64,000 bases of DNA from Sphingobacteriaceae bacterium. Lineage in GTDB: Bacteria > Bacteroidota > Bacteroidia > B-17B0 > Aurantibacillaceae. Both the position numbers and the translations under genes were made by a program. The notes beneath the pieces were generated by a model. That model saw only the letters and a program-made list of their open reading frames with translations, had not been told where the DNA came from and searched no databases. Of this stretch, positions 37,800-57,196 are shown piece after piece (within the stretch, counting starts at the first letter, position 1; each line of letters opens with the position of its first letter). Location of the stretch: positions 1 through 64,000 of the forward strand of contig CANKBS010000002.1 in NCBI GenBank assembly GCA_947480015.1, given 5' to 3'.

Positions 37800-38159
37800 T
37801 TGAAAACGAAAAGAAAAATACTTGCCATTCTGAATCTGATGTTATTCATCAGTTCATTGTTATTTGGCTCTTTGAGTGGTTTTCTCTCTGTACCTAATTT
37901 AACCGCCCCTAGTCATTTCAAATTCCAGTATGCCGAAAAGCATAACCTGGACAATGGCAAGTGTTCTCAATTGGCTTATGAAGAAAATGAGAATGAAAAT
38001 GAAACCGATACTGTTTCACAGGTTGAGATTTTTTTAGCTGCCTTTCATTTAAGTGTTTTCCATCTTGATGCGCCTGCTGCCAGGCATTATTCCTCCCTCG
38101 CTCTTTTAAACAAACCCTCTAAGCCGATTTACATTTCGGTGTGTAATTTTCGTATCTGA
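37800..38159 (+). CDS. Small exported protein upstream of dabA
   Basis: The protein has 119 residues if the TTG at 37800 is the start; ATG 37839 is the alternative. It shows an N-terminal export or membrane segment (ILAILNLMLFISSLLFGSL), an acidic middle (YEENENENETDT) and a hydrophobic aromatic C-terminus (KPIYISVCNFRI). I recognise no family. Its plan (N-terminal segment, acidic Asn/Glu stretch, tail ending basic-Ile) is shared with the proteins at 42663 and 54636, which also precede inorganic-anion transporters. The DabA gene follows after 109 bases. Confidence 0.6.
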   Translation: MKTKRKILAILNLMLFISSLLFGSLSGFLSVPNLTAPSHFKFQYAEKHNLDNGKCSQLAYEENENENETDTVSQVEIFLAAFHLSVFHLDAPAARHYSSLALLNKPSKPIYISVCNFRI

Positions 38160-38268
38160 TAAATTTTTCGCCCTGTTTTAACCGGGTTGATGCTATTATG
38201 CATGATTGTGCTTTTGTTCTAAACAAACAATTAAAAATTTATTTTATTTAATCCGCCGAAAAAGAAAC

Positions 38269-40764: not shown

Positions 40765-42639
40765 ATGACCGATACTTCGTTGTTACATATTTTTATGCTG
40801 GTGCCTTTGATCGGGTTTATTATTAGCTTGTTTATTGCTGAAAAAAGAGAGGCACTTATTTCTGCCATCGCTTTTTCAACGGTAGGGCTGCATTTTTTAC
40901 TTTTCTTTTCCTACTTCATTATCTGGATGATGCATGATCATAATGACATTACCATAAAAGACTTTGTTGTTTTTAAATCAACCGGTTATGAATTTTATTT
41001 AGACTTTTATTTTGATCGCATCACGGCCACTTACTCGTTTGTTGGATCCTTATTAACCTTTCTTGTATCTATTTACAGCCGGTTTTATTTGCATCGTGAA
41101 CCCGGTTACAAACGTTTCTTTAATACCCTTTTGTTATTTTATTTAGGATACAACATCACCGTTTATTCGGGTAATCTAGAAACACTTTTTATTGGCTGGG
41201 AAATTTTAGGCATTTGTTCTTTTTTACTCATTGCCTTTTACCGTGAACGTTTTTTACCGGTTCGTAATGCCTTAAAGGTATTTACGGTTTACCGAATAGG
41301 TGACGTGGGTTTAATTTTGGCCATGTGGATGAGTCATCATTTGTGGCATCAAAACATTTCATTCTTTCAATTACGTAACGACTTGTTGGTACATACCGAA
41401 CTTGAAAGTCACACTTGGATTGGAATTTTTATTTCACTTATGATTTTGATAACCGCTGCGGCTAAATCGGCCCAATTACCGTTTTCGAGTTGGTTGCCAA
41501 GAGCCATGGAAGGACCAACCCCATCGAGTGCTATTTTTTACGGATCACTTTCGGTGCACTTAGGCGCATTTTTGTTGATGCGTACTTATGAGTTATGGGA
41601 GAATCAATACATTGTGCGTGTACTCATTATTTTATTAGGATTAAGCACCAGTATCATTTCCACACTCATTGCACGTGTGCAATCATCCGTAAAAAGTCAG
41701 ATCGCGTATTCATCGGTAGCACAAATTGGAATTATATTTATTGAAGTAGCCTTAGGTTTGGAGAACATTGCTTTGATACACTTTGCCGGAAATGCCTTTT
41801 TAAGAACTTACCAGTTATTGGTATCCCCTTCGGTAGCCAGTTATTTAATTCGTGAGCAATTTTATAATTATAAACCACGTGTATTAACCATTGAAGACAC
41901 CTGGCCTAAAAAAATTGAACATTCGGTTTACTTATTAAGTTTAAAAGAATGGGATTTGGATGTACTCATGTCGAAGTACCTATGGAATCCTTTAAAACGA
42001 ATCGGACGGAAATTAAATTTCATGAGTTTAAAAAGCATTTTATATGTTTTTGCGCCATTGTATATGATTGGTCTGGTTTGTTTGTACAATAAGGTGACTA
42101 TACCTCCCATGGTGCATGCCTATGTACCGTTGTTTTTTTCGCTCATTGGTTTACTCATGGTATTAAAAGCTTTCTCTGAAAATAAAAGCATTTTCTTAGC
42201 CTGGATTCTCATTATGATGAATCACTTCTGGGTAGCCTTAGCCGTATCATTTAATGAGGATTTCAGCTTTGGTCAAGTTCATTTATATTTAAGTGGCATT
42301 GTGGTTGCTGGCACTGTTGGTTTACTGTCATTAAGAAAAATAAAATTATTAGAGAATAGTTTGGACCTCAGTAAATTTCATGGGCATGTGTATGAACATC
42401 CTAAAATGGCTTTTATATTTTTAATTGCTTGTTTGGGTTTAACCGGATTTCCGATCACCCCAACTTTTATTGGCGAAGATGTTATATTCAGTCACATCCA
42501 CGAGGGACAGTATTTACTTGCCTTTTTTACTTCTTTAAGCTTTATTATTGACGGCTTAGCCTTAGTGAGAATTTATGCACGCGTATTTTTGGGACCACAC
42601 ATTAAGACCTATCACGAAACACCTTATCGTTCATCTTAA
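40765..42639 (+). CDS. dabB: DabB, NuoL/MrpA-type cation-conducting subunit
   Basis: This 624-residue membrane protein of the proton-conducting transporter family has some 14-16 hydrophobic segments. Motifs include TLFIGWEILGICSFLLIAFYRERF and AAKSAQLPFSSWLPRAMEGPTPSSA, the latter being the conserved channel helix of NuoL/MrpA. Close linkage to dabA and the absence of other complex I or Mrp genes identify it as DabB, which would use the proton or sodium gradient to drive DabA. It is longer than typical DabB (about 500-550), with an insert around residues 375-420. Confidence 0.9.
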   Translation: MTDTSLLHIFMLVPLIGFIISLFIAEKREALISAIAFSTVGLHFLLFFSYFIIWMMHDHNDITIKDFVVFKSTGYEFYLDFYFDRITATYSFVGSLLTFLVSIYSRFYLHREPGYKRFFNTLLLFYLGYNITVYSGNLETLFIGWEILGICSFLLIAFYRERFLPVRNALKVFTVYRIGDVGLILAMWMSHHLWHQNISFFQLRNDLLVHTELESHTWIGIFISLMILITAAAKSAQLPFSSWLPRAMEGPTPSSAIFYGSLSVHLGAFLLMRTYELWENQYIVRVLIILLGLSTSIISTLIARVQSSVKSQIAYSSVAQIGIIFIEVALGLENIALIHFAGNAFLRTYQLLVSPSVASYLIREQFYNYKPRVLTIEDTWPKKIEHSVYLLSLKEWDLDVLMSKYLWNPLKRIGRKLNFMSLKSILYVFAPLYMIGLVCLYNKVTIPPMVHAYVPLFFSLIGLLMVLKAFSENKSIFLAWILIMMNHFWVALAVSFNEDFSFGQVHLYLSGIVVAGTVGLLSLRKIKLLENSLDLSKFHGHVYEHPKMAFIFLIACLGLTGFPITPTFIGEDVIFSHIHEGQYLLAFFTSLSFIIDGLALVRIYARVFLGPHIKTYHETPYRSS

Positions 42640-42662: not shown

Positions 42663-43007
42663 ATGAAACTAAAAAAAATAAGCACATCGGCACTTTGCTA
42701 CCTCATATTGGCGGCATTTTTCAGCGTGATTTGCATGGAGGTCACCTATGCGAAATTTCACAGTCATAAAGTAGAAGTATCGCCGGTAAACAATTTAAAT
42801 GTTGGCGATTTGAATATCATTGTTGAGGAAGAAAGTGACGCATCTGAACTTGTTAATGATTTTCATTTCACTCATGTTTTTGGCTACTTCAACTTAATTT
42901 CGGTATTTATTTTTATTGGTTTATTTTCGAGCTTCTTAATTTTTGTCCGATTCAACCTATTATTTAAGCTACCCATTTTTCTGCGTTACCGCGTACTCCG
43001 CATTTAG
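42663..43007 (+). CDS. Small membrane protein upstream of SulP-1
   Basis: The protein has about 114 residues from ATG 42663; a start at 42642 would overrun the usual basic N-terminus. An N-terminal hydrophobic segment with Cys (LCYLILAAFFSVICMEV) is followed by FHSHKVE, an acidic stretch (IIVEEESDASE) and a second membrane segment (LISVFIFIGLFSSFLIFV). The end is LPIFLRYRVLRI. The HSH motif and general plan recur in the protein at 54636. It lies 23 bases after dabB and 68 before SulP-1. Confidence 0.6.
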   Translation: MKLKKISTSALCYLILAAFFSVICMEVTYAKFHSHKVEVSPVNNLNVGDLNIIVEEESDASELVNDFHFTHVFGYFNLISVFIFIGLFSSFLIFVRFNLLFKLPIFLRYRVLRI

Positions 43008-43075
43008 ATTTTTTTTTAATCGTTGTTAAACAAATTGACATATTAAAAAATTAATCTTTAAATACAAAAAACAGA

Positions 43076-44686
43076 ATGCCTTCAACAAAAAAATTCATAC
43101 CTGCCGATGGACTCGCCGGTTTAAAACAAAATTTCTCTAAAGATGCCTTATCCGGCTTTCTTGTCTTCTTATTAGCCATGCCCTTAAGTTTGGGCATTGC
43201 CAAAGCTTCGGGGTTCCCTATGTTCTTTGGTTTGGTTACAGCCATTATTGGTGGTGTGGTCGTTAGTTTCTTTATGGGTTCACGCTTATCCATTAAAGGG
43301 CCTGCTGCCGGTTTAATAGTGATAGCCAGTGGTTCGGTTGCAGCATTTGGTGACGGAGAAACCGGTTGGCATCTAGCTTTGGGCGTAGTGGTCGTTGCCG
43401 GATTACTTCAAATTGTTTTTGGCGCCTTAAAACTAGGCAAGCTAGCCGACTTTTTTCCTAGCGCTGCCATACATGGTATGTTAGCTGCCATTGGCATTAT
43501 TATTATGGCCAAACAACTGCATTTACTTTTGGGCATCAATCCGTCTGAATTAAAAGGAAAAGAACCGCTTGAATTATTAGCCATGTTACCTGCAAGCATC
43601 ATGCATGAAAACGCTCATTTGGCTGAAATTGGTATTGCCTGTTTAGCCATCATGATCCTTTTAAGTTTAATTAAAAATGAAAAGATTAAAAAAATCCCCG
43701 CTCCGCTAGTTGTGCTTGCTGTATCCATTCCTTTAGGAATTGCACTACATATTAAAACCGATGGTGCCATTTCTAATTTTGCGCTGGTTAAAATTGGAAG
43801 TATTAGCGATGCCTTTAAAAGTGGATTAGTGAATGTAGACTTTTCGGGCATGTTCACGCATACCGGCGTTTTTATACAGTATGTAATTCTTTATTCATTA
43901 ATTGGTAGCCTCGAATCATTATTAACTGCAAAAGCCGTTGATCGTATGGATCCGTATAAACGCAAAACCGATTACGATAAAGATTTAATTGGTGTGGGTA
44001 TTGGCAATACCATAACCGGTATACTGGGTGGTTTACCCATGATTAGTGAGGTTGCCCGGAGTTCGGCCAATGTGAATTATGGAGCCAGAACCCGTTGGGC
44101 TAATTTCTTTCATGGTTTGTTTTTATTATTAGCCATATTAGTTGCGGTACCCTTCATCGAAATGATTCCTAATGTAGCGCTTGCAGCCATGTTGGTGTTT
44201 GTTGGATTCAGGTTAGCGCATCCAAAACAATTTGTACACACCCTTCATATTGGAAAAGAACAATTATTGGTTTTTACCATTACTATTATTGTGACCATTG
44301 CTACCGACCTTTTAATGGGCGTTGGCACCGGGATTCTCTTAGAACTCATCGTAAATGTAGTGAATGGCGCTTCTATAAAAGGACTGTTTAAAACCACTAT
44401 TGAAGTCGTGCAAGAAGGTAATAAATACACCATGTTTGTAAAGGGTGATTTGGTGTTTTCAAATTTACTCGGATTCAAAAAGAAATTTTTTGAAATCCCT
44501 GCCGGCATGATGATTGACATTGACATTTCGAATGCTAATATTGTAGATCATACCTGCATTGTTACCATCAATGGTATGATGGATGCTTACAAAGAGGATG
44601 GCAGCAAAGTGATGGTGGTTGGTTATGAAAACCACCGCCAATTGTCGAAAGATCCTACTTCAACCCGTATTTTAAAATTGAGCTAA
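43076..44686 (+). CDS. SulP-family inorganic anion transporter 1
   Basis: This 536-residue transporter of the SulP/SLC26 class has the N-terminal block SGFLVFLLAMPLSLGIAKASG, GSRLSIKGPAAGLIVIASG, and about 12-14 membrane segments. A C-terminal STAS-like domain (from ~440) ends near VVGYENHR. SulP members move sulfate, bicarbonate or other anions. Location beside dabAB, and with a second SulP next to a carbonic anhydrase, favours bicarbonate (BicA-like), but this is inference. Confidence 0.88.
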   Translation: MPSTKKFIPADGLAGLKQNFSKDALSGFLVFLLAMPLSLGIAKASGFPMFFGLVTAIIGGVVVSFFMGSRLSIKGPAAGLIVIASGSVAAFGDGETGWHLALGVVVVAGLLQIVFGALKLGKLADFFPSAAIHGMLAAIGIIIMAKQLHLLLGINPSELKGKEPLELLAMLPASIMHENAHLAEIGIACLAIMILLSLIKNEKIKKIPAPLVVLAVSIPLGIALHIKTDGAISNFALVKIGSISDAFKSGLVNVDFSGMFTHTGVFIQYVILYSLIGSLESLLTAKAVDRMDPYKRKTDYDKDLIGVGIGNTITGILGGLPMISEVARSSANVNYGARTRWANFFHGLFLLLAILVAVPFIEMIPNVALAAMLVFVGFRLAHPKQFVHTLHIGKEQLLVFTITIIVTIATDLLMGVGTGILLELIVNVVNGASIKGLFKTTIEVVQEGNKYTMFVKGDLVFSNLLGFKKKFFEIPAGMMIDIDISNANIVDHTCIVTINGMMDAYKEDGSKVMVVGYENHRQLSKDPTSTRILKLS

Positions 44687-44805
44687 GGCTCAAAAAAACT
44701 TGCCGTCCCCGGTTCAGTGTTTGGAAGTTTATTTCATAGTTTTCTATCAAACAAACTGACTGGGGATACGGCAAGACTTATTAATAAAAAAAGAGTCAAG
44801 GCTCA
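44685..44805. repeat. Inverted-repeat element after SulP-1
   Basis: A long imperfect hairpin pairs 44699-44723 (CTTGCCGT-CCCC-...-CAGTGTTTG) with 44748-44775 (CAAAC...CTGACTGGGGATACGGCAAG). Identical 8-base direct repeats AAGGCTCA stand at 44685-44692 and 44798-44805. It could be a terminator-like structure or a small mobile (MITE-like) element; it has no T-run directly after the stem. Confidence 0.6.
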
Positions 44806-44919
44806 GGGATGCTTGTCAAGTCGCGGCAGATTGTTGCATTAATTGGTTACTGGTAATATTAAACTATAACCGGAATTTTGTCAAGACAAATTGGAACGGC
44901 CTCTCTAAAACAAATTAAC

Positions 44920-46335
44920 ATGAAGAAAATCAATTATAGTCTTTTAGTTTTAAGCATCTGCTCCACTTCGGTTTTTGCCCAGCAAGCCGATACCATAAAA
45001 AAAGTCGTGCCCGAAAAAAACGCTCTTAAATTCAATATTAATGCCGATGGCTCACATTATTTTCAGGCTACTTTTTTAAATCAAACGTGGGTACGATTTA
45101 ATCAAAGTAATGATGGCAGTACCTTGTTTTCAAAGCCGGTTGATAACACCTTTGATATTGGTTTGAGAAGAACCCGTATTCAATTATTCGGTCAAATAAC
45201 CGACCGTACTTTTATTTATTTCCAGTTTGGACAGAATAATTTTAATGATGTTGCAGGTTATAATGCTTCTGCAGGAGGAACCGGAAATAGAAAAATTGCC
45301 GCCTTTTTTCACGATGCCTTGTGTGAATACAAAGTTACAAAAGGGAATCAATTAAAAATTGGTGGCGGCTTAACCGTATTAAATGGCTTGTCGCGGTTTT
45401 CGCAACCATCGGTTGGTACTATTATGACCATGGATGTTCCGGTGTTTTTACAATATTCGGTTGATCAGATTGATCAATTTGACCGTCGTTTGGCTGTTTA
45501 TGCGCGCGGACAAATTGGTAAAATTGATTATCGCGCATATGTCTCCAATCCCTTCCCTATTAGCACCAATGGTTCACCAACAGTAAACATAAGTACCAAT
45601 GCCAGTTTTGTAAATGTGGGTGCTATACCTAATGGTCATGGTCCTGGTATGAATAATCAGTTTGGCGGATACTTAGCCTATAATATTTTCGAGAACGAAT
45701 CCCATACCACACCATACATGACCGGAACCTATTTGGGTTCTAAAAAAGTTTGGAACATTGCTATAGGCGGCGTGTTTCAAAAATCAGCCACCTGGAATTT
45801 ATCTTCCGACAAAAAAGATACCTTATACAATAACATGTTGCATCTAAGTGTTGAATCCTTTCTGGATATGCCTTTAAACAAAGAAAAAGGAACCATGCTA
45901 AGTGCGTTTGCAGGTTATTACAATACCAATTATGGCACTAATTATTTAAGATATAACGGCATCATGAATCCGGCTACCGCATCAACCGCTACAAATCTTA
46001 TACAGAGCGGAGCTTACGGCAATGCTGTACCCATGTTTGGTACAGGACAAATCGTATACACTCAAGTTGGTTTATTATTACCTAAAAAAATACTGGGTGA
46101 AAAAAACGGACAGTTAATGCCTTACTTAAGCGGCCAATATGCCGATTACTCTGCCATGCAACACAAAGGTGTGTTGGTTTTTGATGCCGGCTTAAATTGG
46201 TTTATTAACGGACATAAATCAAAACTATCTTTAGATTACCAAAGCAGACCAACGTTTAGTAAAGAAGCTACAGGCTATATTACTGAAGGAAATCGAAAGA
46301 GCAGTGTAACCATGCAGTATCAGATCTTTTTCTAA
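44920..46335 (+). CDS. Outer-membrane porin-like protein (OprP/OprO type)
   Basis: The protein has about 471 residues from ATG 44920, with a signal peptide ending VFAQ. Barrel strands such as FNINADGSHYFQATFLNQTW, FDIGLRRTRIQLFGQITDRTFIYFQFG and YRAYVSNPF recall phosphate-selective porins O and P. The end VTMQYQIFF is an aromatic barrel terminus. It lies between SulP-1 and a second porin, so it probably carries anions or small solutes across the outer membrane. Confidence 0.78.
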   Translation: MKKINYSLLVLSICSTSVFAQQADTIKKVVPEKNALKFNINADGSHYFQATFLNQTWVRFNQSNDGSTLFSKPVDNTFDIGLRRTRIQLFGQITDRTFIYFQFGQNNFNDVAGYNASAGGTGNRKIAAFFHDALCEYKVTKGNQLKIGGGLTVLNGLSRFSQPSVGTIMTMDVPVFLQYSVDQIDQFDRRLAVYARGQIGKIDYRAYVSNPFPISTNGSPTVNISTNASFVNVGAIPNGHGPGMNNQFGGYLAYNIFENESHTTPYMTGTYLGSKKVWNIAIGGVFQKSATWNLSSDKKDTLYNNMLHLSVESFLDMPLNKEKGTMLSAFAGYYNTNYGTNYLRYNGIMNPATASTATNLIQSGAYGNAVPMFGTGQIVYTQVGLLLPKKILGEKNGQLMPYLSGQYADYSAMQHKGVLVFDAGLNWFINGHKSKLSLDYQSRPTFSKEATGYITEGNRKSSVTMQYQIFF

Positions 46336-46383
46336 CGATTATTTAATTTTAGGCATTACTATTTTGGCATAAAAAGAAAAAAA

Positions 46384-47724
46384 ATGAAACTACTTTTATC
46401 GGTAAATTTTGTTCTTATCTGCCTGGCATCTTTGGGGCAAGACAGTATTCGTAAAAAGGAATCCCGTTTTACCTTGCATGCTCAGGAAACAACGGTGAGT
46501 CAATTTAGGCTCGGCTTTAGTGCCAAATACACCGGTGCTCATAGTCAAAGCACTTCCGAAGAATGGGCTACAACCGTTACGAGTACTATTTTTGCCGGCA
46601 TCCGTTTGTGGAAATATTCTCAGCTGGTTATTAACCCTGAAATTGCCGGTGGTCATGGTTTATCCTCAGCCTTCGGTATTGCAGCATTTACCAATGGTGA
46701 GGCCTTTCGAGTTGGCAATCCCGACCCCACCATCTATTTGGCTCGTGGGTTTTTCCGTCAATTAATACCACTTTCGCATAAACTAGAATGGCAAGACGAT
46801 TCAGAAAACAAAGTTGCTCAGTATGTTCCGAAAAATTATTTGTCTGTTACCCTTGGCAAGGTTTCGGTAGCCGATTACTTTGATGATAATAGTTTTTCGC
46901 ATAATGCCCGTACTCAATTTATGAGTTGGGGTTTAATGAGCAATGGGGCATGGGACTATGCTGCGAATACGCGTGGTTACACACCCAGTGCCATTGTTGA
47001 ATATGTGAGCGATCGTGTGGAGATCCGCTATGGCTTTAGCATGATGCCGGTGACTGCTAATGGCAACACCATGGATAAAAACATAGGCAAAGCAAATGGC
47101 AATGTTTTTGAAATTAAATATAAATACCAACTTGGCGGCCGTGCAGGTAAAATAGCCGCACTCGCTTTTTATAACACCGCTTTTATGGGAAGTTACACAG
47201 CATCAAATACCTTGAGTGTTGCCGATACTGCTAATCCAGGTTTTTATAAAAACAGTTATACCATTTTAGCGAGTCGCCAATATGGTCGCAGTAAATACGG
47301 TTACGGACTTAACATCGAACAAAAGTTAAGTGAGCACATTGGTTTATTTGCCAAAGCTTCTTATAACGATGGCAAAAATGAAACCTGGTGTTTTACCGAA
47401 ATAGACAGAGCTTTTAGCTTGGGAACCCTCATTAACGGAACTAAATGGCGACGCCAAGACGATCAAATTGGGTTAGCGTATTGCGCATCGGGGCTTTCAA
47501 ATGAACATCGAAAATATCTTGCCAATGGCGGTATGGGTTTTATGTTAGGCGATGGTAAACTAAATTATGGCACCGAACATTTAGTTGAAAGCTTTTACAA
47601 AATCGCCTTGATAAAAAATCAAATCAATGCATCTCTTGTATATCAATATATCATTAATCCGGGCTATAATAAAGATCGGGGACCCATGCGGGTGTTTTCG
47701 ATACGCCTGCATTTATTCATTTAA
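46384..47724 (+). CDS. Carbohydrate-porin (OprB-like) protein
   Basis: The protein has 446 residues with a signal peptide (SVNFVLICLASLGQ). The mature part has RFTLHAQETTVSQFRLGFSAKY, IFAGIRLWKYSQLVINPEIAGG, YLSVTLGKVSVADYFDDNSF and a terminal RVFSIRLHLFI strand, the pattern of Bacteroidota carbohydrate porins. It starts 48 bases after the previous porin and is probably cotranscribed. The substrate is unknown. Confidence 0.82.
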   Translation: MKLLLSVNFVLICLASLGQDSIRKKESRFTLHAQETTVSQFRLGFSAKYTGAHSQSTSEEWATTVTSTIFAGIRLWKYSQLVINPEIAGGHGLSSAFGIAAFTNGEAFRVGNPDPTIYLARGFFRQLIPLSHKLEWQDDSENKVAQYVPKNYLSVTLGKVSVADYFDDNSFSHNARTQFMSWGLMSNGAWDYAANTRGYTPSAIVEYVSDRVEIRYGFSMMPVTANGNTMDKNIGKANGNVFEIKYKYQLGGRAGKIAALAFYNTAFMGSYTASNTLSVADTANPGFYKNSYTILASRQYGRSKYGYGLNIEQKLSEHIGLFAKASYNDGKNETWCFTEIDRAFSLGTLINGTKWRRQDDQIGLAYCASGLSNEHRKYLANGGMGFMLGDGKLNYGTEHLVESFYKIALIKNQINASLVYQYIINPGYNKDRGPMRVFSIRLHLFI

Positions 47725-47915
47725 ACTTAAGTCGATGAAAATAAAAAAGCGTGAGGAATATCAAAGAAGACCAATCCCCCACTATTAACTATTAAAATAG
47801 TATAAATACGTCATCATAACTAATATAAATCATGAATTAGAAAGCAAGCCAACAGTAACTTTACAAACCGGAATAAAATAACAAAAGACACAAAACAAAG
47901 ACCTGAAAACCTACC

Positions 47916-49169
47916 ATGAAAAAAACGCCTTTAATAATTCTCTTTTTTTGTTTGATGCAACAATATGTCGTTAGGGCACAAAGCCTTCAGAATATGAGTC
48001 TGGAGGAATGTGAAGCCGTGTTTTTAAAAAACAATCTCCTTCTTTTAGCCCAACAATATAATATTTCAGCCAAACAGGCCCTCATTATTCAGGCTAGGTC
48101 ATACCCTAATCCGACCTTTAATGCCGATTTTAATGTGTATGATCCAAACAACAAAAAATATTTTCACATTGATTCATCCGGACAAAAATCATTTCAGGTT
48201 CAGCAATTGATTTTATTGGGTGGGAAACATAAAACGGAGATTGAAATTGCCAAACAAAATAAAGTTTTAGCCGAATCAGAATTTGCTGAATTATTACGAA
48301 ACTTAAAGGTCAAACTCCATTACAGTTTTTATTCCATTAATAGTGAAAAGACCGTGATTGAGAATTACGACAAACAATTGCAAATTTTAGATACCATTAT
48401 TTCAACATATAAAATTCAAACCGACAAGGGTAATTTACCACTCAAAGACATTGTGAGGTTAAAATCGGTATTTATTAAAATCAGCGGCAGCCGCTCAGAA
48501 TTATTTTATGAATTTAGTGAACAACAAAAACAATTAAAATTAATGCTGCAAACAAATGTAGATGTTAATCCACAGGTAAATGAAGCGAGTTTTAATAATT
48601 ACCTGGATCTTAAATCGCTGGGTGATTTACAAACATTGGCCATCAGTAACCGGCGTGATTTAAAAATTGCCGACGAAAGCGCCATTATTGCAGCTCTAGT
48701 AATGAAGCGCCAGAAAAGAGAAACAATTCCCGACATAGCGGTGAATTCGAGTTACGACCAACGCGGCGGAGCTTTCAGAAATCAAATTAATGCCGGTATA
48801 ACTTTACCGGTTCCGGTGTTTAATACCAACCGAGGTAATATTAAAGCCGCCGAGTTTGATAAAAAAGCCATGGATCTTTAGGTGCAGGAAAAGAAACTGG
48901 AAATTGAATTGGATATTCAGGAAGCCTGGGTGAACATGGAAAGAAGCATTAAGGATTATTCAAAAATAAAAATTTTATTTAACGATGAGTTTAGTCAGGT
49001 TAATAAAGGTGTAAATGATAATTTTAGGCAACGTAATATTACTATCCTTGAGTTTGTCGATCATGTAGAAGCTTACAATGAGTCATTAGCCGACTACGAG
49101 CGCATTAAAAAACAATTAGCCATATCGGCTGCCCAAATTAATTACGTAACTGCAACCAAAATTTATTAA
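47916..49169 (+). pseudogene. czcC: TolC-family outer-membrane efflux protein (CzcC-like), split by an in-frame TAG
   Basis: The frame runs 417 codons, a normal CzcC/TolC length, but codon 322 (48879-48881) is TAG. The first part has a signal peptide ending VRAQ, SLEECEAVFLKNN, ARSYPNPTFNADFN and the long helices of a TolC half. The second part continues in the same frame without loss of homology (LDIQEAWVNMERSIKDY ... AAQINYVTATKIY). GTG directly after the TAG could restart translation. CAG to TAG would be one base change (the context ...DL-x-VQEKK). Causes could be a true nonsense mutation, read-through or a sequence error. It is the first gene of a Czc-type operon. Confidence 0.85.
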
Positions 49170-49176
49170 AAAAACT

Positions 49177-50262
49177 ATGAAATATTTATATTATACCGGA
49201 CTTATTTGCGTTTCCTTAATAGCCCTTGCGGCTTGCCATGGCAAGGAGAAAGATGAGGCAGCTGTTGTATTTGAATTATCGGATACAATGCTGAAACGAT
49301 GTGAATTCACCAAGGCTCGCTTGCAGGATGTAAAAGATGAATTGAAACTATTTGGAAAGGTAACTGCGGATAATGACAAAATGGCTCACGTCTACCCTAT
49401 CACAGGTGGCATCGTTTCTGAAATAAGAGTTGAATTAGGTGATTATGTAAACGAGGGTCAATTATTAGCCATTGTAAAAAGCAGTGAGGTGGCCGATTTC
49501 CAGCGACAGTTGGTTAATGCCCGTTCGGATGTTGCTCTTGGAGAAAAAAATCTTCAGGTAGCCCGCGATTTGTTTGCCGGTAAATTAAATTCCGAAAAAG
49601 AAGTACTGGCTTCAGAAAAAGAATTGGAAAAAGCTAAATCGGAATTAACACGTATAAATGAAGTGTATGCCATTTACCATTTAAAACAAGGTTCAGAATA
49701 TAGTATAACCGCGCCAATTTCGGGATTCATCATTAATAAGGACATTACCAAGAACGAAGAATTGCGCAGTGATCGCACCGAGGAAGTGTTTTCCATTGCT
49801 CAAATAAATGAAGTGTGGGTGCTGGCAAATGTGAACGAAACCAACATTTCAAAAGTTGCGCTCGATTACGAAGCCGATGTGCTAACATTAAGTTATCCTG
49901 ATAAAATTTCCAGAGGAAAAGTGGATAAGATCTTTAATGTTATTGATCCCACCACCAAGGCCATGAAAATTCTAATTAAAATTAATAATCCGGATTTATT
50001 ATTAAAGCCTGAAATGAACGCCACAGTGAATCTTAAATTTTCGGAAAATAAAAAACTGATTGCGATACCTTCGAGTGCCGTAATTTTTGATAAAAGCAAA
50101 AATTTTGTGATGGTCTTTAAAAACAGAACACACATCGAAACCCGTGCCATTGAAGTCTATCACCGTTTGGGCGACGTTACGTATATAAGCAGTGGGATTA
50201 ATGAATATGAAAACGTGATCTCTAAAAATGGTTTACTTATTTATGATGCACTTAATGATTAA
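49177..50262 (+). CDS. czcB: RND efflux periplasmic adaptor (CzcB/CusB type)
   Basis: The 361-residue membrane-fusion protein is lipid-anchored (lipobox ALAAC, Cys at about residue 20). It has GGIVSEIRVELGDYVNEGQLLAIVKSSEVADF (lipoyl half), a coiled-coil hairpin (~95-155), SEYSITAPISGFIINKDITKNEEL (second lipoyl half) and a beta-barrel domain. It links the inner-membrane pump CzcA to the outer-membrane channel. The start is 7 bases after the broken czcC. Confidence 0.9.
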   Translation: MKYLYYTGLICVSLIALAACHGKEKDEAAVVFELSDTMLKRCEFTKARLQDVKDELKLFGKVTADNDKMAHVYPITGGIVSEIRVELGDYVNEGQLLAIVKSSEVADFQRQLVNARSDVALGEKNLQVARDLFAGKLNSEKEVLASEKELEKAKSELTRINEVYAIYHLKQGSEYSITAPISGFIINKDITKNEELRSDRTEEVFSIAQINEVWVLANVNETNISKVALDYEADVLTLSYPDKISRGKVDKIFNVIDPTTKAMKILIKINNPDLLLKPEMNATVNLKFSENKKLIAIPSSAVIFDKSKNFVMVFKNRTHIETRAIEVYHRLGDVTYISSGINEYENVISKNGLLIYDALND

Positions 50263-50306
50263 TAAACAAGTTTGATCTTTTAATCACCTACTGGCAACCT
50301 TTTAAC

Positions 50307-53300
50307 ATGAACAAATTCATAAAAAACATTATCACCTTCTCTTTAAAAAACAAACTCTTCACTTTTTTCTGGGTTGGTATTTTAGTTATTGCAGGTATTA
50401 TCAGTTACATCAATATACCCATTGAAGCCTTTCCGGATGTAACGAACACACAGATTATTGTGGTAACCGAATGGAACGGACGCAGTGCCGAAGAAGTTGA
50501 ACGTTTTGTGACCACACCGATTGAAATTGCCATGAACTCGGTGCAACGCAAAACCAATGTAAGAAGTATTACCATGTTTGGTTTATCGGTGATCAAAATT
50601 ATTTTTGAAGATGATGTGGAAGACTTTTTTGCGCGACAGCAGGTGAATAACCAATTAAGAAATATTAAACTGCCGGAAGATGTGGAGCCTGATGTTCAGC
50701 CACCATACGGACCAACCGGTGAAGTATTTCGTTATACACTAAAAGCCAAGAACCGCGATAGTCGTGAACTTTTAACCTTACAAAACTGGGTTATCGACCG
50801 TCAACTGCGTTCGGTGGCCGGTATTGCCGATGTGGTAGCCTTTGGTGGTCAGGAAAAAATTTATGAAATATCTGTTGATCCGGTTAAACTTCAGAAATAC
50901 GACATTACGCCGGCCGACGTGTACGATGCCGTAAGTAAGGCAAATTTAAATGTAGGCGGAGATGTGATCGAAAAAAACGGACAAGCTTATGTGGTGCGTG
51001 GTTTAGGTTTATTAAACACCATTCAGGATATTGAAAACACCATTGTAGATGATTATAATGATAATCCCTTACTGGTAAAAAATGTGGCCAAGGTTTCCGA
51101 ATCGAGCGTGCCACGGGTTGGACAGGCCGGGTTAAATGACGACGACGATGTGGTAGAAGGCATTGTGGTAATGCGTAAAGGAGAAAACCCCAGTGAAGTT
51201 TTAGCTCGCTTAAAAGCAAAAATAAATGAAATCAATACAACCGTATTACCCAGCGATGTTAAGATGGCGGTGTTTTATGATCGCGACAACCTGATGAGTT
51301 TTTGCACTAAAACGGTAATGCACAATTTACTGGAAGGCATCATTTTTGTTACACTCATAGTTTTAATCTTTATGGCCGACTGGCGAACCACTTTTATTGT
51401 TTCCATCATCATTCCTTTGGCCTTACTTTTTGCTTTTTTATGTTTAAAATTAAAAGGCATGAGTGCCAATTTATTATCCTTGGGGGCGGTTGATTTTGGG
51501 ATCATAATTGACGGAGCGGTGGTAATGGTGGAAGGTTTATTTGTGATGCTCGATCACATGGCACTTAAAAATGGCATGGAGCGCTTTAATAAGTTAGCCA
51601 AAATGGGGCTCATTAAAAACACCGCAACCGGTTTAGGTAAAGCCGTGTTCTTTTCTAAACTCATTATTATTTCGGCTTTACTTCCCATTTTTGCTTTTCA
51701 AAAAGTGGAAGGTAAAATGTTTTCGCCACTTGCCTTTACCTTAGGATTCGCCTTATTGGGTGCCCTTATTTTTACCTTAACCCTTGTTCCGGTTTTGGTA
51801 TCTATTTTGTTAAAGAAAAATGTAAAAGAACGACGCAATGTTTTTGTTGAATTTTTTAATCGCATTGTTGGCAAGGGCTTTAAATTCACGTTTGCCAACA
51901 AACGTAAAAGCCTCATTATTTCATTTGTGATCTTAGCCCTCTCCATTATTTCAGTAAAATGGATGGGGACCGAGTTTTTACCACCCTTAAATGAAGGCGC
52001 ACTTTGGGTAGAAGCAAAATTACCCATGAGTAGTTCATTAAGCGAAACCATAAAAACTGTTTCCTTATTAAGAGCCGAATTGCAAAAATTTCCGGAAGTG
52101 AATGGGGTCTTATCGCAAACCGGACGAAGTAACGATGGTACCGACCCCAGTGGTTTTTACTATGTGCAAATGCAGGTGAATTTAAAACCCAAAGATGACT
52201 GGGAACGAAAAATATCGGTGGATGAACTGGTTGAAGATATGGACAAGGTCTTAAAAAATTATCAAGGTATTGTTTACAATTACTCGCAACCCATTATTGA
52301 TAATGTAGCCGAATCGGTTGCCGGTATTAATGCCAGTAATGCCGTAAAAATATATGGCGACGATTTGGATGAGCTTAATGAAATAGCCAATAAGGTAATT
52401 GATCAAATTGAACATGTGCCGGGCATTAAAGATGTGGGTATTTTAAGAAACATCGGTCAACCTGAAATTTCAGTAATTCTCGATGAAGAAAAAATGGCGA
52501 TTTACGGTGTTAGAAAATCGGATGCACAAAGTATTATTGAAATGGCTGTTGGTGGTAAAACTGCCACACAAAAATACGAAGGCGATCGCAAATTTGATAT
52601 TCGTGTGCGGTACTCTAAAGAATACCGTAAAGATGAAGATGATGTGATGAACTTGATGGTTACAACCGTTCGTGGCACACACATTCCTTTAAAAGAAATT
52701 GCTAAACTAAAAAAAGTAACCGGACCGGCATTTATTTACCGTGATAATACCAAACGATTTATTGGTGTTAAATTTTCTATTCGTGAGCGTGACCTAGGTA
52801 GCACCATTGCTGAAGCTCAGGCCAATGTGGAAAAAAACATCAAATTACCCATGGGTTACAAAATTGGTTGGACCGGTGAATTTGAAAATCAGGTGAGGGC
52901 AACCAATCGATTGGGACAAGTTGTACCAATAAGTTTGCTTCTTATTTTTGTTTTGCTGTTTATCATGTTTGGAAATATTCAAGATGCTTTATTAGTTTTA
53001 ATTAATGTGCCATTTGCGTTAATTGGCGGGATATTTGCTTTACATCTTACCGGTATTAACTTCGGAATCTCTGGAGGGGTTGGGTTTATTGCGCTTTTCG
53101 GTATTTGTATTCAAAACGGTGTTATTCTTATTTCTGAATTTCATAATAATTTAAAAAGCAAACTCAGTCTCGAAGCCTCCATTTTTCAGGCCGTTAAAGC
53201 CCGTACGCGGCCGGTGGTAATGACTGCGTTAATGGCGGCCATTGGTTTAATGCCCGCCGCCTTATCAACCGGCATTGGCTCCGAATCACAAAAGCCCTTG

Positions 53301-53405
53301 GCTGTTGTTATTATTGGTGGACTTGTAACCGCTACCATTTTCACACTTATGATTTTTCCTATTTTTTATTATTGGGCGCAACGTAAAAAACATCTTGATA
53401 TTTAA
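50307..53405 (+). CDS. czcA: Heavy-metal efflux RND pump, CusA/CzcA family
   Basis: This 1032-residue RND pump has 12 membrane segments and two large periplasmic loops. The proton-relay motif D396-FGIII-D402-GAVVMV-E409 is intact, with the 6- and 7-residue spacing of CzcA (D402/D408/E415 there). This motif separates divalent-cation pumps (Zn, Co, Cd, Ni) from the copper/silver CusA type. The N-terminus has NIPIEAFPDVTNTQI and EWNGRSAEEVERFVTTPIE. It appears intact although its outer-membrane partner gene is interrupted. Confidence 0.93.
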   Translation: MNKFIKNIITFSLKNKLFTFFWVGILVIAGIISYINIPIEAFPDVTNTQIIVVTEWNGRSAEEVERFVTTPIEIAMNSVQRKTNVRSITMFGLSVIKIIFEDDVEDFFARQQVNNQLRNIKLPEDVEPDVQPPYGPTGEVFRYTLKAKNRDSRELLTLQNWVIDRQLRSVAGIADVVAFGGQEKIYEISVDPVKLQKYDITPADVYDAVSKANLNVGGDVIEKNGQAYVVRGLGLLNTIQDIENTIVDDYNDNPLLVKNVAKVSESSVPRVGQAGLNDDDDVVEGIVVMRKGENPSEVLARLKAKINEINTTVLPSDVKMAVFYDRDNLMSFCTKTVMHNLLEGIIFVTLIVLIFMADWRTTFIVSIIIPLALLFAFLCLKLKGMSANLLSLGAVDFGIIIDGAVVMVEGLFVMLDHMALKNGMERFNKLAKMGLIKNTATGLGKAVFFSKLIIISALLPIFAFQKVEGKMFSPLAFTLGFALLGALIFTLTLVPVLVSILLKKNVKERRNVFVEFFNRIVGKGFKFTFANKRKSLIISFVILALSIISVKWMGTEFLPPLNEGALWVEAKLPMSSSLSETIKTVSLLRAELQKFPEVNGVLSQTGRSNDGTDPSGFYYVQMQVNLKPKDDWERKISVDELVEDMDKVLKNYQGIVYNYSQPIIDNVAESVAGINASNAVKIYGDDLDELNEIANKVIDQIEHVPGIKDVGILRNIGQPEISVILDEEKMAIYGVRKSDAQSIIEMAVGGKTATQKYEGDRKFDIRVRYSKEYRKDEDDVMNLMVTTVRGTHIPLKEIAKLKKVTGPAFIYRDNTKRFIGVKFSIRERDLGSTIAEAQANVEKNIKLPMGYKIGWTGEFENQVRATNRLGQVVPISLLLIFVLLFIMFGNIQDALLVLINVPFALIGGIFALHLTGINFGISGGVGFIALFGICIQNGVILISEFHNNLKSKLSLEASIFQAVKARTRPVVMTALMAAIGLMPAALSTGIGSESQKPLAVVIIGGLVTATIFTLMIFPIFYYWAQRKKHLDI

Positions 53406-53461
53406 CAGGGACATGGCTTTCATTGTAATTAACTACCAATAATTTGATAAATTGCAAGCCA

Positions 53462-54571
53462 ATGAAAATTCAGCCGCACTTAACTATTCTTGTTCTTTTA
53501 CTTTGTTTTGTGCTGCAAACCTCACATGCTCGGGTAATTCATGACACCGATACTACAAAACGCTTAAAGTTTCTAATTATCCCAACTTTTTTTGTTACGC
53601 CCGAAGTTGGTCTTGCTTATGGGGTTTCGGGCTCCTTTGCCTTTAAAACCAGTTTTAATAAAGACAGTTTAACCCGTACTTCTATTATACAAGGAATTGG
53701 TTTTTTAACTACCCGTCAACAAAATGTGCAGGCTATCGATGCAAGCATTTATTTTCCAAAAGAAAATTATATTTTACTTGGTCAACTCGCACACAGCTAC
53801 TTTCCAGATCGGTTCTGGGGTTTAGGACCCGAAACAAAAGACAAACCCTTCGAGCATTATCTTTACGAGCAGTATTTTATTAACCCACATCTTAAGAAAA
53901 AAATAGCCAAGCATTTGTGGATTGGGGCTCTTTATGAATTTCAATACGTTAATAAAATTAGCGGCTATCCCGAAAATGGGAAGTTTGACACGGCACCTTT
54001 TAAAGGCAAAAAAAAATACCAGGTCTCGGGCGCAGGACTCAGTATCAGTTACGACACTCGTAACACAACTTTTTGGACGAGTAAAGGGATTTTGATCACA
54101 TCGCAATTCACCAATTTCAGAAAAAAAATACAGAGCGATTATGATTTAGTAAAGTGGATTACCGACGTACGCTATTTTTATGAATTAAATAAAAGTCACC
54201 ACATTTTAGCCATGCAGTTTTATAATTATCAAACCTATGGACAAACTCCTCTGCGTGAGTTATCAGCCTTCGGCGGATCGAATAACATGCGTGGTTTTTA
54301 TCAAGGCCGATACCGAGCCAATAGCATGATTACTTTTATAACAGAATACCGTTTACCCATTTATGGTCGTTTTAGCTCCATTATTTTTGGGGGTATTGGC
54401 GATGTATACAATCAGTATTCCGATTTAAGTTTAAGCAATCTAAAATACTCCTACGGAGCAGGACTTCGTTTTTCAATTCTCGCAAAGGAAAAGCTCAACA
54501 TCCGCGTCGATTATGGCTTTTCGAGTAAGTTTAACAGGGGCATATACGTTACCTTTGGCGAGTGTTTTTAA
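53462..54571 (+). CDS. BamA/TamA-type outer-membrane barrel without POTRA domains
   Basis: The protein has about 369 residues from ATG 53462 (signal peptide HLTILVLLLCFVLQTSHA). The barrel contains FLIIPTFFVTPEVGLAYGV, SYDTRNTTFWTSKGILI, the family motif NNMRGFYQGRYR and the final strand FSSKFNRGIYVTFGECF. POTRA repeats are absent, so it is a surface-antigen D15-like channel or a small-molecule or lipid pore. It lies between the metal pump and SulP-2. It may be the last gene of the czc unit. Confidence 0.8.
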   Translation: MKIQPHLTILVLLLCFVLQTSHARVIHDTDTTKRLKFLIIPTFFVTPEVGLAYGVSGSFAFKTSFNKDSLTRTSIIQGIGFLTTRQQNVQAIDASIYFPKENYILLGQLAHSYFPDRFWGLGPETKDKPFEHYLYEQYFINPHLKKKIAKHLWIGALYEFQYVNKISGYPENGKFDTAPFKGKKKYQVSGAGLSISYDTRNTTFWTSKGILITSQFTNFRKKIQSDYDLVKWITDVRYFYELNKSHHILAMQFYNYQTYGQTPLRELSAFGGSNNMRGFYQGRYRANSMITFITEYRLPIYGRFSSIIFGGIGDVYNQYSDLSLSNLKYSYGAGLRFSILAKEKLNIRVDYGFSSKFNRGIYVTFGECF

Positions 54572-54635
54572 TTCTTTTGTTTTTTTAGGAATTTTCTATT
54601 TTTGTTGGGTAAAATTTTAACTAGTTTTACTACCA

Positions 54636-54956
54636 TTGAAAAAGAAGCGCTTCATAGTCATTTTTTTATTCCTTGTAGGAATGCTGTTCACGGCATTTCA
54701 ATACCTTCCTATTCTTGATGAAGAGCTTGCCTCTCACAGTCATGCTACTCAGAAAAAATCACCACAAAACGACTCTTCTGAGGATAATGGAACTGATCAG
54801 GACAATGATAACAACGATGACAATGAATCGGATTTGGATCAATTTGTTGAACAGGGCGCACTGCTCCTTGTGATTTCAAAACAAACTTATTCGAGACCTT
54901 ACTTCCTTTATACCTCCCTTAAAAATTCCATTAATACCCCACCTCCAAAAATTTAA
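54636..54956 (+). CDS. Small Asp/Asn-rich exported protein upstream of SulP-2
   Basis: The protein has 106 residues from TTG 54636. The N-terminal segment FIVIFLFLVGMLFTAFQYLP is followed by ELASHSHATQKK, a strongly acidic Asp/Asn/Glu stretch (residues ~45-70), a short hydrophobic part (GALLLVISKQTY) and a Pro-Lys-Ile end. TAGTTTTA stands about 9 bases before the TTG, the same spacing as for the protein at 37800. The function is unknown; the acidic stretch and HSH could bind cations or zinc. SulP-2 starts 63 bases downstream. Confidence 0.6.
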   Translation: MKKKRFIVIFLFLVGMLFTAFQYLPILDEELASHSHATQKKSPQNDSSEDNGTDQDNDNNDDNESDLDQFVEQGALLLVISKQTYSRPYFLYTSLKNSINTPPPKI

Positions 54957-55019
54957 TTTTTTCACATCGCCGCTCGTGCAATGGCATTGGCATTTTTACG
55001 TGTTTAAAAATTAAATTAA

Positions 55020-56543
55020 ATGAATTCAAAATTTCTTTTTGCTGATCTTAAATCAGGAATGGTTGTCTTTCTGGTTGCCCTACCACTTTGTTTGGGTATT
55101 TCGATGGCCTGTGGGGTTCCACTGTTTTCGGGAATTATTGCCGGTTTTATTGGCGGTACCATTATTACCTTATTTAGTGGCGCCAAATACAGCGTATCCG
55201 GTCCCGCAGCAGGATTAACAGCTATTGTAATTAGTTCAATTGCTCAATTAGGTTCTTATCCCTATTTTCTTGCTGCCGTTGTCATTGCAGGCGCCTTACA
55301 AATTATACTTAGTATGATTAAAGCCGGCGGCATTGCCAATTATATTCCCAACGCTGTTATCAAAGGCATGTTGGCGGGCATTGGACTAATCTTGATTCTA
55401 AAACAATTACCCCATTTGGTTGGTTATGATGCCGACCCCGAAGGGGATATGTATTTTATCCAATCCGATGGACACAATTCAGTATCTGATCTTTATTACA
55501 TGCTAAATTTTATTAGTCCAGGAGCCCTAATCATAGGTCTGGTTTCTGTTATTCTCATCTTAATAAGTGAACGAAAGTTTTACAAGAAGGATAAAATCTT
55601 GTCCTTCATTCCGGGTCCATTATTAGTGGTCATTGTTGGAATTTTACTTAACATTTCTTTTTCACCTTATCCATTTCTGCGTGTTGCCGCAGAACATATG
55701 GTAAGTCTCCCTTCTATCGCATCATGGACTGATTTACAAAACAATTTAAGTTTTCCCGACTTTAGTTTGATGGCTAATCAGAATTTTTGGATTATTGTGA
55801 TTACTCTGGCATTGGTGGCTAGTTTAGAAACTTTGCTCGGTATTGAAGCCATTGAAAAACTCGATCCCGATAAAAAACCTATTAATACCAATAAAGAACT
55901 TTTAGCGCAAGGCTTAGGAAATATTTTTACCGGACTTTTAGGTGGTTTACCCTTAACCTCAGTAATTGTAAGAAGTTCGGCAAATATGAATGCCGGTGCA
56001 AAAACCAAATTCTCAATAATCGTTCATGCCCTGTTGTTACTTGGATCTGTAATTTTCTTTCCTAAAATACTAGGCTTCATTCCAAACTCGGTCTTAGCCG
56101 TTATTTTAATCATGACCGGTTATAAACTAGCAAAAGTATCCTTGTTTAAACAACATTTAAAAATGGGATGGGACCAATTTTTACCTTTTATAATTACCAT
56201 TGTAATGATGCTGCTTACCGACCTTTTAAAAGGCGTAACGGCAGGTATTATTTGCTCGCTTTGTTTTATTATTCGAAATAATGTCCGTTCTTCGTTCGAT
56301 ATCATAGAAGAATACATCGATGGTCGCATGAATTACCTCATTAAATTACCTCAACACATTACCTTTTTTAATAAAGGCTTTATGATTAACTATCTAAATA
56401 AACTCGAACACAATTGCCGTGTCATCATCGATGGGTCAATAAACAAGAGTACTGATAAAGATGTGAAAGACGTACTGTCTGATTTTATTGAAACATCAAA
56501 AAACAAAAACATTGAAATACAATTAGTAAAATACACCCTTTAA
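55020..56543 (+). CDS. SulP-family inorganic anion transporter 2
   Basis: The protein has 507 residues: FADLKSGMVVFLVALPLCLGISMACG, GAKYSVSGPAAGLTAIVISS, 12-14 membrane segments and a short C-terminal STAS-like region (RVIIDGSINKSTDKDVKDVL). It is followed after 11 bases by a beta-carbonic anhydrase, the classic pairing of bicarbonate-transporting SulP proteins. It is divergent in sequence from SulP-1, so this is not a recent duplication. Confidence 0.9.
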   Translation: MNSKFLFADLKSGMVVFLVALPLCLGISMACGVPLFSGIIAGFIGGTIITLFSGAKYSVSGPAAGLTAIVISSIAQLGSYPYFLAAVVIAGALQIILSMIKAGGIANYIPNAVIKGMLAGIGLILILKQLPHLVGYDADPEGDMYFIQSDGHNSVSDLYYMLNFISPGALIIGLVSVILILISERKFYKKDKILSFIPGPLLVVIVGILLNISFSPYPFLRVAAEHMVSLPSIASWTDLQNNLSFPDFSLMANQNFWIIVITLALVASLETLLGIEAIEKLDPDKKPINTNKELLAQGLGNIFTGLLGGLPLTSVIVRSSANMNAGAKTKFSIIVHALLLLGSVIFFPKILGFIPNSVLAVILIMTGYKLAKVSLFKQHLKMGWDQFLPFIITIVMMLLTDLLKGVTAGIICSLCFIIRNNVRSSFDIIEEYIDGRMNYLIKLPQHITFFNKGFMINYLNKLEHNCRVIIDGSINKSTDKDVKDVLSDFIETSKNKNIEIQLVKYTL

Positions 56544-56554: not shown

Positions 56555-57196
56555 ATGATAGATATGGATAGCTCATACAAAAGGCTTATTGATGGTAACC
56601 GCCATTTTTCAATGTCAAAAAAATTAGATGATCCTGAATATTTTAAAAAACTATCACTCGGTCAAAAACCCGATTACTTGTGGATAGGTTGTAGCGATAG
56701 TCGCGTACCGGCGAATGAAGTCACCAGCACCGAAAGTGGCGAAATGTTTGTGCATCGTAACATAGCCAATTTGGTGGTGCATACCGATCTCAATTTATTA
56801 AGTGTGGTTGAATATGCGGTTAATGTATTGGAAGTAAAACACATTATTGTATGTGGTCATTACGGTTGTGGGGGTATTCGCGCTGCCATGGGCAACGATT
56901 TACTTGGCTTTGTTGATAATTGGCTGCGAAACATTAAGGATGTTTATTTTAAACACCAAACCGAACTCGAACGAATTTCCGATTTCGAAAAACGAGCCGA
57001 TCGCTTAACCGAACTTAATGTGGTAGAACAAGTGCGTAATTTGGCCAAAACCGGTATCGTGCAAAAAGCTTGGAAAACACGCCAACTGCATTTACATGGC
57101 TGGGTTTATGGCATCAACAGCGGACTCATAACCGACTTAAGTGTCATTCATGATGGTAATGAAGACATCGACGCTATTTATCGCTTTAATCTCTGA
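56555..57196 (+). CDS. can: Beta-class carbonic anhydrase
   Basis: This 213-residue zinc enzyme interconverts CO2 and bicarbonate in the cytoplasm. Zinc ligands are C46, H102 and C105, with the catalytic D48-R50 dyad (CSDSRVPANEV and CGHYGCGG). No signal peptide is seen. It is translated almost continuously with SulP-2, so the two would balance CO2 and bicarbonate after uptake. Confidence 0.95.
   Translation: MIDMDSSYKRLIDGNRHFSMSKKLDDPEYFKKLSLGQKPDYLWIGCSDSRVPANEVTSTESGEMFVHRNIANLVVHTDLNLLSVVEYAVNVLEVKHIIVCGHYGCGGIRAAMGNDLLGFVDNWLRNIKDVYFKHQTELERISDFEKRADRLTELNVVEQVRNLAKTGIVQKAWKTRQLHLHGWVYGINSGLITDLSVIHDGNEDIDAIYRFNL

Follow-up and report, generated by a model that had tools for sequence, protein, structure and literature searches.

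In this study, we analyzed a stretch of 64,000 nucleotides (nt) from the start of contig CANKBS010000002.1 of a Sphingobacteriaceae bacterium (GCA_947480015.1; genome size, 3.77 Mb), hereafter the window, which carries a gene cluster for inorganic carbon uptake with three small open reading frames (ORFs), A, B, and C. The order of the cluster is A-dabA-dabB-B-SulP1-porin-(efflux genes)-C-SulP2-carbonic anhydrase, where the porin and efflux labels are our own reading. An earlier note on this DNA had placed the three small ORFs directly ahead of dabA, SulP-1, and SulP-2, and the ORF list and the Pfam matches confirmed these positions (Table 1). The gap from the small ORF to the next ATG is 110 nt for A, 68 nt for B, and 63 nt for C. 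B is internal to the dab operon, ahead of SulP-1, and its start may be placed either at ATG 42663, giving 114 amino acids (aa), or at 42642, giving 121 aa. Hereafter, the small ORFs are called leaders, TM denotes a transmembrane segment, and L and G numbers denote loci and genomes of the same class (the window genome being G000).

Table 1. Coordinates of the leaders, their elements, and the neighboring genes in the window.
Feature	Position	Strand	Details
−7 box of A	37783..37790	+	TACATTTG (TAnnTTTG); ends 9 nt before TTG of A
Leader A	37800..38159	+	119 aa, TTG start; TM, acidic patch, C-terminal KPIYISVCNFRI
Acidic patch of A	37980..38012	+	EENENENETD region
Second helix of A	38134-38141 with 38254-38261	+	predicted; pair probabilities 0.51-0.76
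5' arm of A	38158..38168	+	end of stop codon and next bases; predicted paired with 38233-38243 upstream of dabA ATG; pair probabilities 0.48-0.92
dabA	38270..40761	+	inorganic carbon transporter subunit; ATG 38270; PF10070, E 2e-210
dabB-like gene	40765..42639	+	proton antiporter / NDH-5 family; PF00361, PF00662
Leader B	42663..43007	+	114 aa; TM, acidic patch, second hydrophobic segment, C-terminal LPIFLRYRVLRI
5' arm of B	43000..43010	+	last codons and stop; predicted paired with 43053-43057 and 43074-43079 (including SulP-1 ATG); pair probabilities 0.62-0.98
SulP-1	43076..44686	+	PF00916, E 1.5e-62
Box of C	54622..54629	+	TAGTTTTA, one mismatch to TAnnTTTG; 6 nt before TTG of C; by eye, scored as a miss in the count
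Leader C	54636..54956	+	106 aa, TTG start; TM, strongly acidic middle, C-terminal INTPPPKI
Acidic patch of C	54771..54839	+	
5' arm of C	54950..54961	+	last codons and stop; predicted paired with 55006-55017, 2 nt before SulP-2 ATG; pair probabilities 0.80-1.00
SulP-2	55020..56543	+	PF00916, E 9e-55
Beta carbonic anhydrase	56555..57196	+	directly after SulP-2; PF00484

The plan that the earlier note described, namely an N-terminal hydrophobic segment, an acidic middle, and the endings NFRI, VLRI, and PPKI, is present in A, B, and C. The HSH that it reported in B and C is found in both, but is not conserved among their homologues. The three share the N-terminal TM and the acidic patch, whereas their C-termini belong to two motif types, one like PLYLLFHNFRI (A/B type) and one with PPP (PPP[KEDN]; C type), which corrects the idea of one plan for all three. 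In profile comparisons, A and B aligned over their full length (P 5e-5, probability 67%), A and C in the N-terminal part only (P 1e-4, probability 56%), and B and C showed no match; a single common family of A, B, and C is therefore unproven by profiles. A motif model trained on leaders from across the class, with no window sequence, scored A at 20.6, B at 25.8, and C at −10.9.

The pairing of such ORFs with carbon and anion transporter genes, which the earlier note had seen three times in the window, recurred across the class. DabA was present in 78 of 395 class genomes, and an ORF of the leader plan stood directly upstream in 37 of 70 DabA regions (20 family labels by our count; gaps of 13–225 nt) and in 18 of 60 selected bicarbonate-type SulP regions, five of these 18 leaders having the A/B ending (L217, L220, L228, L247, and L250) and thirteen PP. 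As controls, the same script returned 2 of 29 for Na/H exchangers, both ordinary proteins lacking the motif (scores 0.6 and −0.6), and 2 of 30 for canonical SulP, of which L182 is a genuine C-type ORF. The 70 DabA regions comprised 30 loci and 40 fetched regions, with the window's own match, G017 and G034 (already read), contig-edge matches, and fragments omitted; the 60 SulP regions were hand-picked among the matches listed (one per genome, from a group at about 205–231 bits) and were not random. L148, a copy of L146, was included in the 37 DabA leaders, the PP count, and the folding z, and excluded from the motif set and from the terminator, pairing, footprint, and patch tests; L189 was skipped as too short, and L124 is a doubtful leader. 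Because hydropathy was a selection criterion for the class-wide leaders, their TM is not independent evidence. Among eight named DabA loci outside the training set, four had a leader scoring 16.8–24.4, three of the four being near-identical; in three of the other four, the gene directly upstream looked porin-like by eye, and the last had no leader. The named DabA relatives were mostly metagenome-assembled genomes labelled Bacteroidia, Bacteroidetes, Sphingobacteriaceae, Sphingobacteriales, Spirosomataceae, or Chitinophaga.

Both C-terminal motifs were distinguished from the background. By a position-specific leave-one-out score of the 11-residue A/B ending, 37 of 41 leaders lay above the 99th percentile of 341 background C-termini, which include homologous genes, and PP within the last 13 residues was found in 16 of 21 SulP-set leaders, 0 of 37 DabA leaders, and 5 of 341 background C-termini. 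The low scorers L142, L154, and L155 were left out of the motif model used for the window, G001, and the named loci. In the 79 of 94 leaders whose acidic patch is strong, its distance to the C-terminus was 55.5 ± 6.2 residues. Over all 94 leaders the standard deviation of this distance was 7.8, whereas uniform placement gave 22.6 and shuffling of the middles 19.9 (the start of L105 was set by hand). By group, the distance was 58 ± 10 (DabA), 59 ± 6 (SulP), 54 ± 3 (A in the genus), 58 ± 2 (B), and 50 ± 2 residues (C in the genus). As group means, the patch center lies 31–39 residues after the TM end and 50–59 residues before the C-terminus. According to published work, the start of a TM segment reaches the translocon at 40–50 residues from the peptidyl-transferase center (PMC7886326). 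A nascent chain that passes through the ribosome and the translocon would require a constant distance of this kind across a variable intervening sequence, although a conserved small fold could also give it.

The N-terminal TM, the acidic patch at its fixed distance, and the C-terminal motif are kept across the leaders, and the remainder is very variable, with mean column identities of 15 and 21%. No conserved Cys or His pair was present in the three alignments (A1, A2, and A3); the only single Cys residues were one within the A motif, present in the majority of sequences (A1), and one in the TM, invariant among the three B sequences (A2). AlphaFold2 models of A and C (pTM 0.26 and 0.27) were confident only for the N-terminal TM helix, where the block pLDDT reached 93 for C and 91 for A, and showed no confident fold beyond it; a further helix of C was moderate (block pLDDT 76). 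Library scans of the window proteins and 56 leader sequences gave no Pfam or NCBIfam family beyond one weak single match per library, and membership in these was rejected. The repeatedly paired small-protein family that the earlier note suggested gained support, and its occurrence proved to be class-wide.

Within the genus, single-sequence searches (60 genomes including the window's own, E up to 1) found relatives of C in 29 genomes (20 at E up to 0.002), of A in 22 (13 at E below 0.001), and of B in 11, with only two strong ones outside the window. These searches alone pointed to a genus-restricted family; the class-wide set emerged from the upstream regions of DabA and SulP. With the A + B profile, 25 of the 40 genus genomes gave a match (E up to 0.1), in several cases a weak one; the C profile matched in 10 of 295 class genomes, five of them within the window's family. 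Of the five outside the family, L086 is a genuine C-type ORF ahead of carbonic anhydrase and SulP, and the other four are weak matches. In a motif scan of 400 kb of the related genome G001 (20 stretches, one chosen to include the carbon cluster), the three orthologous leaders and one marginal ORF were the score hits. Since A-type and C-type homologues occur in many genus genomes and the G001 scan was nearly clean, the occurrence of the three ORFs exceeds chance.

The gene that follows the leader is less constant than the leader itself. The next recognized gene after A-type ORFs is DabA, SulP-1, or a TolC-like gene (L048 and L067), or, in L037 and L042, a porin some 370–390 nt downstream; the B homologues L023, L024, and L078 stand ahead of SulP-1, and C-type ORFs are followed by SulP-2 or by carbonic anhydrase and then SulP. 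Thus, the small gene holds its place while the next gene changes. The earlier note had regarded freely varying neighbors as evidence against its proposal; the immediate neighbor does vary, yet mostly within inorganic-carbon/anion operons. In two same-genus genomes (L072 and L077), A/B-like ORFs ending YLAISVLRI and PIYTAICNYRV lie ahead of a membrane-fusion/RND efflux operon; these are weak profile matches, from which the leader type may extend beyond carbon uptake.

The leaders of the genus appear to be transcribed from promoters placed very close to their start codons. Among 31 genus leaders of the A and C types, 27 have a TAnnTTTG box, the −7 element of Bacteroidota, within the counted range of 2–15 nt upstream of the start codon, compared with 7 of 162 background starts; in these 27 the box ends 5–11 nt ahead of the start. 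The start codons of the 31 are TTG (17), ATG (6), GTG (4), and CTG (4). The count used 31 of 34 leaders, L013, L021, and L044 being omitted for an unclear start; the starts were our choice guided by profile matches, and the operon-internal B lay outside the count. As the box is so near the start and the start codons are mixed, nearly leaderless transcripts with weak starts are predicted.

The predicted RNA pairing between the leader end and the next start was in statistical excess in the leader set. Folding of this region gave a mean z of −2.39 with 39 of 61 leaders below −2, compared with −0.68 and 14 of 92 for control gene pairs, the start codons of L265 and L275 being wrongly assigned in this test. 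A leader end also paired better with its own start region than in cross pairs (0 of 20,000 permutations), although shared GC content may inflate this result. With shuffled arms, duplex z was below −2 in 24 of 97 leaders; the control gene pairs gave 3 of 106, and two sets of displaced arms gave 4 and 6 of 97. When a ribosome footprint was placed on the leader end, the start region opened by >0.15 in 27 of 97 leaders vs. 2 of 106 controls and 1 of 97 with a moved footprint; the control pairs came from one genome (with the window added in the duplex and footprint tests) and the leaders from many. Inspection of cases such as L228, L154, L135, and window C showed that the final codons of the leader, together with its stop, can pair with bases immediately ahead of the next ATG. 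Pairings were predicted for all three window leaders and were strongest for C, in which the footprint raised the opening from 0.30 to 0.51. The RNA-pairing signal is present in the set, and it is not universal.

Taken together, these sequence features suggest that A, B, and C are probably cis-acting nascent-chain (translation-arrest) leaders of the SecM/CutF kind that control inorganic-carbon uptake, and not transporter subunits. The earlier note had proposed small partners or regulators of carbon/anion transport; the repeated pairing it relied on held, and a regulator is preferred to a docked subunit, because one motif type stands ahead of varied genes, only the TM, patch, and motif are kept, and the 3' end is predicted to pair in part of the set. 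The analysis shows the genes and their positions, the recurrence across the class, the motifs, the fixed patch distance, and the excess of predicted RNA pairing in the set; that the leaders stall ribosomes and act as a switch, in which direction they regulate, and what they sense are inferences. On this view, the small ORF would be translated, from near-leaderless transcripts and mostly non-ATG starts in the genus in the case of A and C, and its TM would bring the translating ribosome to the translocon. At or beside the stop codon, the ribosome may then be slowed or stalled by the C-terminal motif (PLYLxxHNFRI type in A/B, PPP[KEDN] type in C). The paused ribosome would cover the leader 3' end, which may otherwise be paired with the dabA or SulP initiation region; this region would thereby be freed and the transporter made. 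The acidic patch, approximately 55 residues upstream of the stall point, would at that moment lie in or near the translocon as the likely sensing element, and a pull on it would end the pause and turn the transporter off.

Several observations weigh against the arrest-leader interpretation. Stalling by the leaders is a prediction, the proline-rich C-terminus of CutF alone did not stall in a LepB fusion (PMC9973294), and the own-versus-cross pairing result carries the reservation on GC content given above. The position of the class-wide leaders was partly set by the search, as these loci were read only upstream. No leader lies directly upstream in 33 of the 70 DabA regions; 17 of these have a porin, carbonic anhydrase, or SulP directly upstream (BLAST), one has no BLAST match to DabA, and of 15 others ten have a longer ORF by eye (L087-L093, L102, L126, and L128), leaving five. 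To our knowledge, the A/B motif resembles no known arrest motif. The RNA evidence is uneven as well. The footprint gain was not above 0.15 in 70 of 97 leaders, and the genus A/B leaders were the weakest group in the duplex test (mean z −0.16, 2 of 20 below −2). In the window, the duplex z was −1.8 (A), −1.0 (B), and −1.4 (C), none significant singly; the footprint raised the opening of A from 0.51 to 0.64, nearly the same as the moved footprint (0.60), and caused no opening in B (0.70 to 0.69), for which support for the RNA model is poor. At the named loci, none of the four leaders, three of them near-identical, showed specific opening (folding z −0.5 to −1.2), and five genus A-type ORFs (L037, L042, L044, L048, and L070) have no accepted next start within ~280 nt and, like L067, are absent from the cross-pair, duplex, and footprint tests. 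Terminator-like hairpins were not enriched (4 of 57 leaders vs. 20 of 92 control pairs), and attenuation by an intrinsic terminator was rejected for this reason. As a separate observation, in the DabA subgroup L087-L093 no small leader was seen; the upstream ORF there, which runs off the edge of the locus and has at least 468–491 codons, lies against DabA or almost so.

The leaders could also be small accessory subunits or chaperones that bind the neighboring transporter through their conserved C-terminus. The linkage to inorganic carbon/anion transporter genes, the membrane anchor, and the second hydrophobic segment of B would suit such a role, but the A/B motif stands ahead of both DabA and SulP, which are unrelated families, so that there is no single-family specificity, and the next gene may be a carbonic anhydrase (C type) or a TolC-like/efflux gene (A/B type). 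We regard this explanation as unlikely, given also the variability of the remainder of the protein and the lack of a confident fold past the TM in the models; the RNA complementarity would be unexpected for a subunit, and the constant upstream position is weaker evidence, because the class-wide loci were read only upstream. Alternatively, a nascent-chain leader may act on transcription, a paused ribosome blocking Rho-dependent termination between leader and transporter, as in CruR, which has the same plan and works through Rho (PMC9426467). The gaps of 13–225 nt without intrinsic-terminator enrichment leave room for Rho, and leaders without RNA pairing would be explained, but the specific pairing of the leader end with the initiation region would not be needed; this variant seems rather unlikely.

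Very unlikely, in our view, is an exported small protein that acts in trans as a stress signal, its free C-terminus being recognized by a PDZ/tail-specific protease. Many leaders do have a C-terminal hydrophobic residue. The gene at 36283-37656, upstream of A and outside the Pfam scan, encodes by our reading an S41-type (tail-specific-like) protease, and in L035, L042, L045, and L071 relatives of this gene lie upstream of A-type ORFs; however, in several leaders (L151, L153, and L276) the motif is followed by 2–9 extra residues, indicating that the free end is not conserved, and among the matches listed for 40 DabA upstream regions there is none to this gene. That profiles might reveal unrelated signal-peptide proteins was one refutation envisaged by the earlier note, and such proteins would stand at these places by accident. 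The overall identity is indeed very low, but the motif statistics, the fixed patch distance, the controls, and the motif scores in the window contradict it, and we rejected this explanation as scarcely credible.

One of the closest known systems is CutF of the Rhodobacter capsulatus cutFOG operon, a nascent exported copper sensor in which a C-terminal proline motif and an mRNA stem-loop control the next gene, and CutF-like proteins are many in Bacteroidota (PMC9973294). Our leaders resemble it in being small, exported, and directly upstream, with a predicted RNA structure over the next start in part of the set and, in the C type, PP near the C-terminus. They differ in having an acidic patch instead of a Cys/His metal motif, in the A/B type with another C-terminal motif and no PP, and in their targets, which are SulP, DabA, and carbonic anhydrase rather than metal genes. 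PP within the last 15 residues of a protein of <150 aa with a signal by hydropathy was found in the C type only (window C, L003-L021, and 16 of 21 in the SulP set), a CutF-like metal-binding Cys/His motif was absent from A1, A2, and A3, and the structure over the next start was in excess in the leader set and not significant for A, B, or C singly. The main text of PMC9973294 contains none of the words sulfate, bicarbonate, carbonic, SulP, and acidic.

The leaders likewise share with SecM, MifM, VemP, ApdA, ApdP, and the RQH arrest peptides an N-terminal signal/TM, a variable spacer of >30 aa, a conserved C-terminal motif, and the proposed cis control of a membrane-protein gene (PMC10987492), and like those they are small upstream ORFs of no known function directly ahead of the next gene. 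In that report, Bacteroidota members of the arrest type with a C-terminal proline (NAP-stop and NSP-stop) stand upstream of secDF and secA, and its screen covered the regions upstream of secA, secDF, and yidC. In our leaders, in contrast, the next gene is DabA, SulP, carbonic anhydrase, TolC-like, or efflux, the endings are PPP or FRI-like and not RAPP-like, and the predicted target is carbon/anion uptake. CruR (DUF2946) of Bordetella pertussis is similar as a nascent-chain upstream ORF heading a transporter operon, but it is a CXXC copper sensor with a RAPP motif and is Rho-dependent (PMC9426467). A scan of 56 leader sequences gave no match to DUF2946. Small proteins of Bacteroidota that precede efflux genes, such as HYC_CC_PP, also have an N-terminal signal and PP near the C-terminus; our leaders differ in that the only NCBIfam hit of the 56 scanned, a weak one, was to another family.

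Concerning the signal, membrane potential is a candidate because it reportedly moves acidic residues through the translocon and releases SecM arrest, although it is not the sole force (PMC6028853, citing Ismail et al. 2015). On this conjecture, the leaders would be voltage sensors: the membrane potential would pull the acidic patch in the translocon and end the pause, coupling carbon/anion uptake to the potential/proton motive force in translation, and the PLYLLFHNFRI type would be a new, proline-free arrest motif. We hold this extended proposal as doubtful, and bicarbonate, pH, or cations at the acidic patch are alternative signals. Because the patch lies at a fixed distance, a voltage-sensing nascent chain is directly testable.

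As far as we know, the control of CO2/bicarbonate uptake (Dab, SulP, and carbonic anhydrase) in Bacteroidota has not been described at this level, and literature searches aimed at leaders of this kind for carbon uptake found no paper, a negative that covers those searches only. If the leader interpretation is true, a leader family class-wide ahead of these genes would provide a direct handle on uptake control, and nascent-chain sensing would be extended from protein export and metals to inorganic carbon, with a new arrest motif.

Some further features of the window were noted. A TolC/MFP/RND efflux set (47916-53405) lies between the two carbon-uptake units, and its TolC-like gene (47916-49169) has an in-frame stop at 48879-48881, the second half resuming in the same frame from 48882. 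The RND gene of this set remains close to C or SulP-2 in several same-genus genomes (L004, L006, L007, L009, L014, and L016), where it is 88–94% identical, and the SulP-2 identity in these loci is far below that, at 54–65%. Finally, 34265-34480 is of low complexity; one frame encodes Glu/Asp/Ala/Lys repeats, and the opposite strand encodes repeats of Ser/Ala/Thr.

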